Positions 1,746 through 15,116 of a stretch of DNA of 27,673 bases are shown one piece after another. Numbering within the stretch: position 1 is the first letter of the stretch; the number at the start of each line of letters is the position of its first letter. Both the position numbers and the translations under genes were made by a program. The stretch lies in the IMG/VR virus record IMGVR_UViG_3300030202_001845, positions 1 through 27,673 of that record; one strand, given 5' to 3'. This DNA is from a virus. The notes beneath the pieces were generated by a model. The model made no database searches, was not told the DNA's origin, and was given only the letters and a program-made list of their open reading frames with translations.

Positions 1746-2219
1746 ATGTCGAGACGCAAACATTTAACACCACAACAGATAAAATTCGTCAATTTACTGG
1801 TATATAATGAAGGACGCAAAACAGCTACTGAATGTGCTGTTGAAAGTGGCTATGCGAAAGATCGGTCTAGAAGTACGGCATCTGAGCTACAAAATCCAAA
1901 TTATTATCCTCTCGTTGTACAAGAAATCAACCGGCTTCGTTCTGAAATCAACGCAAAGTATCGAGTATCTTTAGAAACCCACATGCGAGACTTAGCAGAC
2001 ATCAAGCGCAGAGCTTTAGAAGACGGATCATATTCGGCTGCGGTTCAAGCGGAGGTAGCCAGAGGAAAAGCAGGCGGGCTATATGTAGAACAAAAAATTA
2101 TCAAGCATGGAAAAATAGATCAGCTTACACCAGACGAGGTGAAGCAAGAACTACAAAAGATAGCGGATTCTATTAAACCAAAAATTATTGACGCGAAGGT
2201 AGAAGAGATAAAACACTAG
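1746..2219 (+). CDS. terS: Probable terminase small subunit
   Basis: A 157-residue protein counted from ATG 1746 (MSRRKHLTPQQIKFV). The N-terminal third has the layout of the small-terminase helix-turn-helix: L-T-P-x-Q-x-K-F-V, then a stretch like ECAVESGYAKD, then a long helix with the Q-N-P-N-Y-Y-P-LV pattern. A helical middle likely drives ring assembly, and the Lys-rich C-terminus could contact the large subunit. The role would be recognition of phage DNA for packaging and recruitment of the ATPase/nuclease. The large terminase is not in this window. No clear Shine-Dalgarno sequence precedes the ATG, and the leader would be very short. It is a plus-strand gene among minus-strand genes, with its own promoter. 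Confidence 0.75.
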   Translation: MSRRKHLTPQQIKFVNLLVYNEGRKTATECAVESGYAKDRSRSTASELQNPNYYPLVVQEINRLRSEINAKYRVSLETHMRDLADIKRRALEDGSYSAAVQAEVARGKAGGLYVEQKIIKHGKIDQLTPDEVKQELQKIADSIKPKIIDAKVEEIKH

Positions 2220-2766: not shown

Positions 2767-2830
2767 AAAGAGTTTTTTTACTAAATTTACAAACGATAAA
2801 ATCCAAATACAGTCTCACGACGACAAGAAG

Positions 2831-2944
2831 ATTACCTCTAAGTATAAAAAATTACCTCCAAATTACCTCTAAATTACCTCTATTTTTATAGTTAACTTAT
2901 TGTTATATATAAACATTCTTAAAAAAGTTACCAAATTACCTCTA
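2831..2944 (+). repeat. Iteron-like array of ATTACCTCTA
   Basis: Five direct copies of a 10-bp unit ATTACCTC(T/C)A start at 2831, 2851, 2862, 2873 and 2935. The spacings are 20, 11, 11 and 62 nt, so the central copies sit one helical turn apart on the same DNA face. The segment 2767-2947 is otherwise AT-rich and gene-free. A sixth match in the opposite orientation (GAGGTAAT at 2995-3002) lies inside the next gene. A TATACT box (minus strand, 2846-2841) lies between copies one and two. Such arrays are usual for initiator binding at an origin or for cooperative repressor binding. Which applies here is not determined. Confidence 0.65.
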
Positions 2945-2947
2945 ATT

Positions 2948-3154
2948 TTATTTTTTTAGTTGCTTCAAAATATTTTTAGCAAAAAAACCCTTAGGAGGTA
3001 ATTTTTCTTTTAGGTGCCTTTTCGGTGTCCCTGTGCCGTCATTCATGTACGGTTTACATAGATCCCTGCAATATTTCTTGCCTTTCTGCCATTTATTGAC
3101 AGTAAAAGAACTCCCACATCCCAAACATATCCGTTGGCCCTTGTCCGTCGTCAC
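2948..3154 (-). CDS. Small basic zinc-finger protein (68 aa, GTG start)
   Basis: Starts at GTG 3154-3152, which overlaps the TGA of the preceding gene (GTGA), with AAGG four bases before it. Residues about 10-33 hold CLGC, then CRDLC, a compact four-Cys zinc site flanked by Lys and Arg. The C-terminal 25 residues are strongly basic (RHLKEKLPPKGFFAKN, KQLKK). This points to a nucleic-acid-binding protein, resembling the short Cys4 fingers of some HNH or DksA-like phage proteins but without a nuclease motif. Its coding sequence contains an inverted copy of the repeat found in the array just downstream, so it might bind there. That is a guess from position. Confidence 0.65.
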   Translation of the reverse strand: MTTDKGQRICLGCGSSFTVNKWQKGKKYCRDLCKPYMNDGTGTPKRHLKEKLPPKGFFAKNILKQLKK

Positions 3155-3535: not shown

Positions 3536-4237
3536 TCATGCTACACCCTCATTAAAATATTTCTCGCAACGTTTCAGCCACTTGTATTTATAATCATCGA
3601 ACCGTTGACCGTCGATCGTGAACATTTGAAACTCGAGCCCTCTCGACGCCATAAGAATCACGCCCGCTTCCATCTTCGTCCCGAACAACGCGTCGTGCGC
3701 CATAGAATAAGCGGCCAGTTGCACAAAGTAATCTTCAATCCACTCAATCTTCTTTGGCTTGTTCGTCTGCTTGAAATCCATGATCGCCGGTTTGTCGTGC
3801 CACAGACCTACACAGTCTGCGGTACCACCGTAGAACGTTGGATAGTACATCGTTACTTCGGTTCCCCATATCTCGTTAATAAAAGGAAAAGCTTTCTCAA
3901 TAACAACTTTCGCCATCCGCTTGCCGATCACTCCTTCGTTGGTCTGATCGTCGTAGCCGACGCCTTTGATATGACACTCGAGGTACTTGTGCATGGCTGT
4001 GCCAACTGTTGCCGCTTGATTTTTAATTTTCTCTGCCGTCTCTTCGCCAACTCGATTGCGCCACGCCTGTAGACCTTTTTGGTCTGCTTCGTCTTTGGTT
4101 GCAGAAATAATTGTCGTAACAGACGGTAAAAATTTTCCCTCACCTTCATAGTGTCGCTTGCCATTGACTTTCTTGCGACGCACATCTTTGTAAGGGTAAC
4201 GTTCTGTAACTAGTGATTTAAGGTTTTGAATGCCCAT
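3536..4237 (-). CDS. PD-(D/E)XK exonuclease (MGME1/RecB-like)
   Basis: A 233-residue nuclease of the PD-(D/E)XK superfamily, like the phage exonucleases related to mitochondrial MGME1 and RecB/Cas4. The visible core runs in order: G-T-A-M-H (His83), Glu127 in WGTEVTM, Asp141 in FYGGTADCVG, the catalytic D-F-K (Asp154, Lys156) in AIMDFKQT, and Q-L-A-A-Y (about 173-177), the typical downstream Q-xxx-Y helix. It would degrade DNA from ends, processing replication or recombination intermediates or host DNA. No Fe-S cysteine cluster is visible. It lies downstream of the ribbon-helix-helix gene with a 20-nt overlap, so the two are coupled. Confidence 0.85.
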   Translation of the reverse strand: MGIQNLKSLVTERYPYKDVRRKKVNGKRHYEGEGKFLPSVTTIISATKDEADQKGLQAWRNRVGEETAEKIKNQAATVGTAMHKYLECHIKGVGYDDQTNEGVIGKRMAKVVIEKAFPFINEIWGTEVTMYYPTFYGGTADCVGLWHDKPAIMDFKQTNKPKKIEWIEDYFVQLAAYSMAHDALFGTKMEAGVILMASRGLEFQMFTIDGQRFDDYKYKWLKRCEKYFNEGVA

Positions 4238-12469: not shown

Positions 12470-13924
12470 ATGAAATATAAATTTAAGACGAAGCCTTACA
12501 AGCATCAGATGAAGGCTTTGGAAAAGAGTTGGAACAACAAAAATTTTGCTTTGTTCTGCGAGATGGGAACAGGTAAATCCAAGATATTATTGGACAATAT
12601 TTCTATTTTGTATGACAAAGGCAAGATAAATGCTGCCTTAATTATTGCACCAAAGGGGGTGTATAAGAACTGGGTAGAACAAGAAATACCTAAGCATGTA
12701 CCAGATCATGTTTTTTGCAGAACGTTTTATTGGGTAGCTCCGAGCTCACGATCTAAAGACGACAAAGAAATGTTATCTCAGTTATACACAAAAACACGAG
12801 ACCCCTATCTAACCTTCTTTGTAATGAATGTAGAAGCTTTCTCTACCAATCCGGGCAAAGAAGAAGCAAAGAAATTTTTATCTGCCTACAAGGCTTTGAT
12901 GGCTATTGATGAAAGCACTTCTATCAAAACTCCGAATGCGGCTAGGACTCAAAACATTCTACAGGTGGGAACGTGGGCGCCATACAAAAGGATTATGACA
13001 GGCAGTCCCGTGACCAAAAGTCCTTTAGATCTTTTTTCACAGTGTAATTTTTTAGACTCAGAGCTGTTGGGTCACGATACTTTTTATTCTTTTAGATCTA
13101 GATACGCAAACATGCAGACTATAAATGTTGCAGGGCGTTCTGTTAATATTGTTCGTCCTTTTAACAGTTATCGTAACTTAGGTGAGCTGTCCGACATCGT
13201 GTCAGAGTTCTCATACAGAATATTAAAAGAGGATTGTTTAGATCTACCTGAAAAAATATATCAACGACGCACTATTGAAATGACGCCTGAGCAAAGGAAA
13301 GCCTATGACTCTATGCGAACTATGGCGTTAGCAGAATTAAATAATAAAGTTTGTTCTACCATGAGTGTGCTAACACAGTTGATGCGACTGCATCAAATAA
13401 CTTGTGGCCACATTAAGACAGATGATGGCGAAATTGTGTCCTTAAAAAATAATCGTATGACAGAACTTATGTCTGTTTTAGAAGAGACAGAAGGCAAAGT
13501 TATAATATGGGCAAACTACGTTGCTGACATAGAAAATATAGTAACTGCCTTAAAAAAAGCTTACGGAGAAGCCTCTACAGTGGCATATTACGGTGGAGTC
13601 AAGGCGAAGGTTCGTCAGAAGCAAATCTCTCTATTTCAAGAGAAAAACGGCCCTACACGCTATTTCGTAGGAAATCCGCAAACAGGAGGGTACGGAATTA
13701 CCCTCACAGCCGCAAATACCGTGGTGTATTATTCTAATAGCTATGATCTCGAAAAAAGACTACAATCAGAGGACAGAGCACACAGAATAGGTCAAACAAA
13801 TAAAGTAACTTATGTTGATCTGCTGTGTGAGAACTCTGTTGATGCAAAGATTGTAGATGCTTTGCGCGATAAGATAAGTATCGCAAACGAGATATTAGGT
13901 GAGGAGCTAAAAGAATGGCTATAA
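12470..13924 (+). CDS. SNF2-like superfamily 2 DNA helicase/translocase
   Basis: 484 residues with SNF2 motifs: Q-type opening YKHQMKALE, Walker A EMGTGKSK (31-38), IIAPKGVYKNW as motif Ia, Walker B variant D-E-S-T within AIDESTSIKT (about 147), motif III TGSPV, and in the second RecA domain IIWANY, the G-G-Y-G-I-T-L-T-A-A-N (motif V) and SEDRAHRIGQ (motif VI). The R-A-H-R-I-G-Q ending is typical of SNF2/RapA/Rad54 proteins, which translocate on duplex DNA rather than fully unwind it. Phages use such enzymes for recombination, fork restart or to strip proteins. On the plus strand with the nuclease gene 6 nt behind it, it forms a two-gene unit. Confidence 0.9.
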   Translation: MKYKFKTKPYKHQMKALEKSWNNKNFALFCEMGTGKSKILLDNISILYDKGKINAALIIAPKGVYKNWVEQEIPKHVPDHVFCRTFYWVAPSSRSKDDKEMLSQLYTKTRDPYLTFFVMNVEAFSTNPGKEEAKKFLSAYKALMAIDESTSIKTPNAARTQNILQVGTWAPYKRIMTGSPVTKSPLDLFSQCNFLDSELLGHDTFYSFRSRYANMQTINVAGRSVNIVRPFNSYRNLGELSDIVSEFSYRILKEDCLDLPEKIYQRRTIEMTPEQRKAYDSMRTMALAELNNKVCSTMSVLTQLMRLHQITCGHIKTDDGEIVSLKNNRMTELMSVLEETEGKVIIWANYVADIENIVTALKKAYGEASTVAYYGGVKAKVRQKQISLFQEKNGPTRYFVGNPQTGGYGITLTAANTVVYYSNSYDLEKRLQSEDRAHRIGQTNKVTYVDLLCENSVDAKIVDALRDKISIANEILGEELKEWL

Positions 13925-14528: not shown

Positions 14529-14889
14529 TCTTTCTCTCCTCTAGGTCTATCAATCTCTCCTCGTGAAACTGTATCACCATGTCATTTTTTAATATCATAG
14601 GTATCTCTGCTTCCATTTGTTCTTTTAGTTTTTCTACATTAGACGATAAGTATTCAACCAACATGTATAATTCCTGGACTTGTGGACTGACCATGTCGCC
14701 TTTGGGGACACCGTCAATAAAAGCATTTGCAGATTCTAAATCTTTTTCCATAAGTTGCAGCGTAGTCTCAATAGAATTTAAACGCTCAATAATTGTGAAG
14801 TAGCTCATTGTGCCTATCGCTACGGCTGCAAGTATAGCAAGTAAGTTACGTGCAGGTAAAGATATAGAAGTATTATCTGATAGTTTCAT
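14515..14889 (-). CDS. Membrane-anchored coiled-coil protein (124 aa), possible spanin-like
   Basis: 124 residues: a short polar N-terminus, one transmembrane helix (about 13-33, NLLAILAAVAIGTMSYFTI), then a long helical, charged region (ERLNSIETTLQLMEKDLE, LYMLVEYLSSNVEKLKEQME). That topology, cytoplasmic tip, one span and periplasmic coiled coil, is what an inner-membrane spanin has, but no partner lipoprotein gene was seen. It could also be a tail-associated or superinfection membrane protein. Its start overlaps the upstream stop (ATGA). Confidence 0.65.
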   Translation of the reverse strand: MKLSDNTSISLPARNLLAILAAVAIGTMSYFTIIERLNSIETTLQLMEKDLESANAFIDGVPKGDMVSPQVQELYMLVEYLSSNVEKLKEQMEAEIPMILKNDMVIQFHEERLIDLEERKNGNH

Positions 14890-15116
14890 ACTATTTCTTT
14901 AATAAAATATATAATTCCAAGAAGAAGAGAGATTGCAGCAAATGACGCTGCAGCTCCCATAAACCACGTCATCATTTGACGAAGTTCAAATGTGTGCTTG
15001 TTAATACGTTGTTGATGCTCGTTTAAGTTGTCTAATTTTTCTTCAAATATTTTATAACGCAGCTCACATTCTTTTAGGTGAGCTTCTAAAGCATATTTAG
15101 TTTCGTCGTCCGTCAT
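14886..15116 (-). CDS. XhlA-like coiled-coil plus membrane-tail protein (76 aa), possible holin
   Basis: 76 residues: a helical, charged coiled-coil segment (about 15-45, CELRYKIFEEKLDNLNEH, RINKHTFELRQ) followed by one C-terminal transmembrane helix (about 48-72, TWFMGAAASFAAISLLLGIIYFI) and a short KEIV end. This is the topology of the XhlA family, a holin-associated hemolysin-type protein in phages, so a role in membrane permeabilisation at lysis is plausible. It is not proven, and no endolysin is nearby. The ATGA overlaps at both ends place it in a cassette with the large virion protein upstream and the spanin-like gene downstream. Confidence 0.65.
   Translation of the reverse strand: MTDDETKYALEAHLKECELRYKIFEEKLDNLNEHQQRINKHTFELRQMMTWFMGAAASFAAISLLLGIIYFIKEIV

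Follow-up and report, generated by a model that had tools for sequence, protein, structure and literature searches.

Genes and Repeats of the Locus

The analyzed stretch of DNA (the window) is a linear virus record of 27,673 bp. It contains genes encoding an AEP primase, a UvrD-like helicase, PolA, an exonuclease and a terminase small subunit (TerS), and its replication genes match those of the HTVC023P/HTVC027P-type pelagiphages with 70–73% DNA identity over small parts. Genes for an SNF2-type helicase and then a PDDEXK protein are located at 12,470–14,296 bp on the plus strand, opposite to most genes. A small protein of 60 aa, encoded on the minus strand just 5' of the exonuclease gene (gene position 4218–4400 bp), resembles ribbon-helix-helix (RHH) proteins by eye; a similar protein was found in 023Pt_psg01, and a Pfam search gave no match.

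A cis element of 236 bp was found at positions 2768–3003; it also occurs beside the gene of the packaging enzyme in numerous pelagiphage-like phages from the sea. In the minus-strand direction, from 3003 to 2768, it consists of an inverted unit, a left outer arm, a pair of units, a spacer, a triple of units, a fourth unit, a G+C-rich box and a right outer arm (Table 1). In minus-strand letters, the inverted unit is AATTACCTCC, the pair is GGTAATTT-GGTAACTT and the triple is GGTAATTT repeated three times; the box after the fourth unit can also be written GTCGTCGTG, and the spacer between the pair and the triple is AT-rich.

Table 1. Features of the cis element and the candidate binder gene in the window.
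Feature	Position (bp)	Strand	Remarks
Whole cis element, predicted packaging-initiation site	2768–3003	−	Place and layout conserved in relatives; top grammar-scan rank in the window
Inverted unit	2993–3002	+	GAGGTAAT at 2995–3002; adjoins the left outer arm; inverted copy changes together with the word in L002–L005
Left outer arm of the inverted repeat	2975–2992	−	AAGGGTTTTTTTGCTAAA
Pair unit 1	2935–2944	−	GGTAAT core at 2935–2940
Pair unit 2	2927–2932	−	Degenerate copy, GGTAAC; spaced 8 bp from unit 1, the standard pair spacing in relatives
IHF-like spacer site	2893–2905	−	TAACAATAAGTTA, one mismatch to WATCAANNNNTTR; p = 0.20 alone, strong across the element set
Triple unit 1	2873–2882	−	54-bp gap from the pair
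Triple unit 2	2862–2871	−	11 bp after triple unit 1
Triple unit 3	2851–2860	−	11 bp after triple unit 2
Fourth unit of the right-hand cluster	2831–2840	−	20 bp after the triple
G+C-rich box	2816–2830	−	CTTCTTGTCGTCGTG, conserved; TTCCCTACGCGCG in other lineages; putative cleavage region
Right outer arm	2768–2785	−	TTTAGTAAAAAAACTCTT; separated by 1–2 bases from the start codon of the 89-aa ORF
Gene of the candidate binder TerS (terminase small subunit)	1746–2219	+	phrog_51, E = 1e-8; SF6 TerS DNA-binding domain by profile and fold

The sequence-only reading of this DNA had listed five direct copies of ATTACCTC(T/C)A at positions 2831, 2851, 2862, 2873 and 2935. These positions are exact and the number of copies is above chance in shuffles; the inverted copy that it placed at 2995–3002 is GAGGTAAT. 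A sixth, degenerate copy (GGTAAC, 2927–2932), which pairs with the copy at 2935, had been missed, and the outer arms and the G+C-rich box were also absent from that list. The local coding strand is the minus strand; in the sense of the genes around it, the unit is therefore GAGGTAAT. The surrounding DNA had been described as gene-free, but the inverted copy sits within the 3' end of a 68-aa ORF (2948–3154 bp), and thus the element is partly coding.

With at most one mismatch allowed, 12 unit matches were found in the window against 3.5 expected, a number reached in 0 of 100 shuffles, and five copies of one GC-containing 8-mer within a 711-bp region exceeded all 2000 dinucleotide shuffles. For the elements taken together, the best inverted repeats in the flanks, i.e., the outer arms, scored 250.5 in total versus 159.1 (SD 5.2) in shuffles. 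In many elements the start codon of the following gene falls within the right arm (ACTCTATGG), the left arm being CCATAGAGT. The right arm of the window element (2768–2785) and those of its relatives reach or enter the next start codon, and a clear Shine-Dalgarno sequence was not seen there. An RNA element was considered and rejected, the single sub-threshold snoRNA match in Rfam being judged a chance match; a sigma-70 promoter or a terminator was likewise rejected, since such signals were at chance level.

Conservation of the Element in Related Phages

About 30 loci of related marine phages, as well as HTVC027P, HTVC023P and 023Pt_psg01, carry the element at a distance of 0–1.7 kb from terS. 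The repeated word is lineage-specific (GAGGTAAT, TGYTACAA, TGTCTCAA, TGTGACT, CTAGGAAA and others) and the grammar, i.e., the arrangement and spacing of the units, is constant. L004 has the same word as the window, GAGGTAAT, whereas L003 and L005 have GATGTAAT, L002 has ACGTAAT and L093 has AAGTAAT; the inverted copy beside the left arm varies in step with the direct word. An alignment of six loci showed that the entire 260-bp layout is retained. The gene order in relatives selected by their exonuclease is exonuclease, small genes, element, SprT-like gene and convergent terS, and relatives selected by TerS carry arrays of unrelated words with identical spacing. The sequence-only reading would have lost ground if relatives lacked the repeats; this is not so because the array recurs at the same place in relatives.

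An unsupervised scan that uses the spacing rule only ranked the element first in the window, with a score of 60.1 against 51.5 for the runner-up and no more than 49.3 in shuffles. It was also first in HTVC027P, of which the first 50 kb were scanned (57.1; runner-up 49.2). When the surroundings of terS were scanned in pieces no longer than 5.6 kb, about 30 loci, several of them near-identical, scored at least 54.5 at the expected place; in the shuffle control for these pieces the best of 20 was 53.2 and the others did not exceed 49. Scores above 54 away from the expected place corresponded to G+C-rich stretches and were left uncounted, and the matches in L040, L061, L081, L095, L097, L123, L135 and at 15.4 kb of 023Pt were rejected as compositional artefacts of this kind. 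The strict element was not seen in more than half of the TerS loci scanned.

The element is unannotated in the four phage records examined. In HTVC027P (L174, 9680–9920, i.e., about 14,726–14,966), an element with TGTTACAA words lies between gp27 and gp28 without annotation. A different array, GGATACAT / CCAAAATGTAT with units 9–11 bp apart, occupies the same place in L010 (6540–7000) and L008 (6950–7220); it is palindromic (AAAATGTATACT...AGTATACATTTT) and departs from the strict grammar. Other repeats were observed close to terS, namely three 33-bp tandem repeats immediately 3' of this gene in HTVC023P (L177, 12,469–12,567) and G+C-rich tandem repeats of the CTTGCTCGC type in 023Pt_psg01 (L178, 15,360–15,470), to which the GCTTG-rich stretches 5' of terS in L112, L142, L150 and L158 are similar.

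The conservation of the element can be compared with that of its neighbours. The zinc, basic, 89-aa, SprT-like and RHH-like neighbours were not found with most elements, partly owing to the limited length of the loci, and a single-sequence SprT scan of viral contigs gave no match. The small zinc and basic proteins next to the array had been proposed as its binders; they are absent from most element-carrying phages, and L003 and L004 keep the element without the zinc ORF. Such neighbours were rejected as binders because they are not conserved together with the element.

These data also bear on the assumption that the element is an operator, either for the downstream operon of small genes (the 89-aa ORF and the SprT-like gene) or for a late switch, bound by the RHH-like protein. 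The element ends almost at the start codon of the 89-aa ORF (Table 1), the 60-aa protein is RHH-like by eye and present in the window clade, and RHH proteins bind short tandem sites. However, promoter-like sites in the region are at chance level with none on the coding strand; TATACT, earlier suggested as a −10 box, lies on the minus strand, where no promoter-like site was called. The downstream genes vary by lineage while the element persists, and the RHH-like protein was not detected beyond the window clade in the set tested. Its presumed DNA-contact residues mostly stay Y-S-S as the words change; near-constant contact residues and restriction to the window clade led us to reject it as the binder. 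An operator of this kind is distinctly unlikely.

Spacing of the Units and the IHF-like Site

The spacing of the units is fixed across elements, being 8 bp in the pair and 10–11 bp in the triple. The gap between the second unit of the pair and the first unit of the triple takes values of 43–44, 53–55, 64–65 or 74 bp (the pairs of L125 and L139 were re-read by hand, giving gaps of 54 and 53). This phasing is significant at a period of 11 bp (Rayleigh R = 0.95, p = 2.9e-9, 22 elements), also when one value per word/TerS class is used (p = 2.2e-5, 13 classes); periods of 10 and 11 bp fit about equally well. The gap thus varies by whole helical turns gained or lost, and half turns were not seen among these elements. 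The quantisation of the gap in 11-bp steps suggests joint binding of the two clusters, both on one face of the DNA. The earlier description of a helically phased array of multiple probable protein-binding sites agrees with these spacings.

Many spacers hold TATCAATAGTTTA or a related sequence that fits the IHF consensus WATCAANNNNTTR. The match occurs in both orientations, forward in L146, L160 and L116 and reverse in HTVC027P, L087, L107 and L108. Over 21 representatives, IHF mismatches in the spacers summed to 23 versus 45.0 (SD 3.0) in shuffles, and 13 of the 21 spacers had at most one mismatch against 3.3 expected (shuffle maximum 9); the significance of this enrichment is optimistic because the representatives are related. 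An IHF-consensus site between the units, as in lambda cosB, is a property of the element set; the window's own match is weak, and the spacers of L090 and L148, among others, contain no match.

Tandem units 10–11 bp apart together with an IHF site resemble attP of phage lambda, in which tandem arm sites are spaced 10–11 bp apart and IHF sites are also present, so an integration site with integrase arm sites was considered. This is highly improbable: a tyrosine integrase (PF00589) was absent from 15 of 15 records, including four whole isolate or circular genomes, with positive controls, and the 43–65 bp gap between the pair and the triple is filled by the IHF site, with no obvious core site.

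Position Relative to the Terminase Genes

In HTVC023P, the element (about 11.62–11.84 kb) is located directly 5' of terS on the same strand. The phage DSL-LC04 carries a looser element about 600 bp 5' of terS, with an outer repeat of 36 bp (83%) and a perfect IHF consensus, and its exonuclease gene is 16 kb away. A terS gene convergent with the element was found in HTVC027P, 023Pt_psg01 and the window clade. Among 80 loci selected by exonuclease, terS was present in 22, and strict elements were found only in the L002–L006 clade, where terS lies just beyond the element (L002 ends before terS). Because most loci were chosen by TerS, the association between the element and terS is partly built in, a bias from which only the isolates and the loci selected by exonuclease are free. 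In addition, the element-bearing loci share ancestry.

The direction from the pair to the triple coincides with the direction of terL in seven of seven records (HTVC027P, HTVC023P, 023Pt, DSL-LC04, G018, G021 and G022), despite the differing orientation of terS; for DSL-LC04, polarity was read from the order of the IHF site and the G+C-rich box only. The orientation of the element with respect to the late genes is therefore constant, also in records with an inverted terS.

The main rival of a packaging site is a replication origin, in which the units would be iterons for a phage initiator (e.g., the AEP primase or a protein of the primase operon), IHF would bend the DNA and the AT-rich spacer or flank would melt. 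Iterons, an IHF site and AT-rich DNA make up the anatomy of a theta origin too, the window encodes its own PolA, UvrD-like helicase and AEP primase, and there is a single such element per genome, in a stretch of low coding density. Nevertheless, the replication genes are thousands of bases away, whereas terS is always within about 1.7 kb, and an origin requires neither a G+C-rich box by the units nor a fixed polarity towards terL. A shared candidate initiator gene was not found beside the units, where the neighbours vary. The cumulative GC skew, proposed earlier as a check, does not turn at the element in the window and rises smoothly across it in HTVC027P, HTVC023P and 023Pt, where gene orientation dominates the skew; since the genes are co-oriented, skew is a weak test for an origin. 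An origin thus appears unlikely. The sequence-only reading had interpreted the array as an origin or the operator of a switch; the GC skew gives no sign of the former, and the latter has no promoter support.

Terminase Small Subunit as the Candidate Binder

The TerS of the window contains an N-terminal helix-turn-helix (HTH), and the variable positions lie in its recognition helix (residues 38–48, KDRSRSTASEL). In a profile search, the strong PDB matches were solely to DNA-binding domains of small terminases (SF6 entries 4zc3/2cmp/3zqp, E = 2–4e-4). Modeling using AlphaFold 2 gave pLDDT values of 85–95 for the HTH region, and a comparison of the model with two of the same SF6 entries at the domain level yielded TM-scores of 0.84 and 0.73 (target length), with a Foldseek E-value of about 0.3. 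Judged by profile and predicted fold, the DNA-binding domain is of the SF6/SPP1 type.

Classes of words correspond to classes of recognition helices: GFSKDSARQYAS always occurs with TGTCTCAA, GFAKDSARQYAS with TGYTACAA, ARSYAS with TGTGACT and YAKDRxRSTAS with GTAAT words. Word distance correlated with the distance of the recognition helix (r = 0.64, p = 2.5e-4) and with that of the rest of TerS (r = 0.67), and a Mantel test of the helix versus the remainder did not separate the two (partial r = 0.14, p = 0.057). As both correlate equally, the word can be said to track the TerS lineage, not yet the helix itself, and the binder could also be a protein that shares the history of TerS. The chimeric TerS of L134 was rejected as proof of a word that depends on the HTH: its DNA is a TCTC-type gene with a TACA-type middle patch, which is mild support only.

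According to a 2022 review, DNA binding by pac-type small terminases is unclear and controversial (PMC9611059). As a point against the packaging reading, the DNA-binding domain of SF6 TerS reportedly showed no sequence specificity for pac DNA in vitro (PMC4737164).

We propose tentatively, with somewhat less than even confidence, that the element is a packaging site of conserved grammar whose word has been rewritten repeatedly together with the recognition helix of TerS in an abundant group of marine phages.

Predicted Function of the Element

We consider it probable, from sequence comparison, that the element is a TerS/IHF DNA-packaging initiation site, pac or cosB-like, of a pelagiphage-like phage. 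The closeness to terS, a repeat arrangement that can be bound jointly and a fixed polarity in the genome were all found, as would be expected of such a site. On the other hand, the element lies outside terS, unlike the sites of SPP1, P22 and P1. The roles of TerS as the binder and of IHF in the spacer, as well as a DNA cut at the element with headful (pac) or cohesive (cos) ends, are inferred.

According to the proposed mechanism, several copies of TerS would use their N-terminal HTH to bind both the pair and, beyond the spacer, the cluster of three or four units. With the spacer folded by IHF or a comparable bending protein, both clusters would lie on the same face, so that one TerS assembly could hold them. 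This complex would position the large terminase (TerL) for a cut nearby, perhaps in the G+C-rich box by the last unit, and packaging would then proceed one way from the element, towards the late genes.

No packaging site of a pelagiphage was found in the literature searched. If the packaging reading is right, about ten TerS lineages with matched words are available, and therefore a recognition code could be tested by binding or swap experiments; the grammar would also offer a sequence-only route to packaging starts in marine viromes. Even as an origin, the element would be a strongly conserved control site of HTVC023P/027P-like phages.

Comparison with Known Systems

Iteron origins of the pSC101 or R6K type combine tandem iterons, IHF and an AT-rich spacer. 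In contrast to them, the element has no adjacent initiator gene and no change of skew, and terS is always near.

The pac site of SPP1/SF6 (pacL-pacC-pacR) is comparable in that TerS has a DNA-binding domain of the same family. There, the cut lies between two regions bound by TerS, and direct repeats are present in the site, as in the element. SPP1 pac differs in that it overlaps the promoter and start of terS, its boxes are fewer and less regular, and an IHF site is not described in the passages considered. For phiM6 of the HMO-2011 group, which is only loosely related to the pelagiphage set, PhageTerm called a headful pac (PMC6256558). In phiM6 (L179, 452–501), a 14-bp unit, ATCATTCAAGT, is present three times in direct orientation, within about 500 bp of the pac cut that PhageTerm set to position 1.

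The pac site of P1 comprises two groups of hexamers (HEX4 and HEX3), an IHF site and a cleavage site within about 161 bp (PMC10028697). Two groups of short repeats and an IHF site are common to both systems. However, P1 pac is located inside pacA and its hexamers contain GATC Dam sites, whereas the element is outside terS and its words lack GATC.

In cosB of phage lambda (R3-I1-R2-R1), short TerS sites, one of them inverted, flank an IHF bend; the cos region of about 200 bp adjoins terS, and the word and recognition helix vary among lambda, 21 and N15 (PMC4669245). The element likewise has units on both sides of an IHF-like bend, one of them inverted. It differs from lambda in that its words are about 8 bp long and spaced by 8 and 10–11 bp, instead of three R sites, outer inverted repeats are present, and terS may be convergent with it. 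In lambda-type sites, cosB adjoins a cosN with 12-base cohesive ends; the element carries a conserved G+C-rich box, and no cosN-like cohesive-end sequence was recognised. The TerS proteins also differ, the domain here being of the putative SF6/SPP1 type and that of lambda a winged HTH. If the word has indeed been rewritten together with the recognition helix, these phages would provide a natural set of TerS–DNA specificity pairs, in which an SPP1-type terminase is combined with an IHF architecture like that of lambda and P1.
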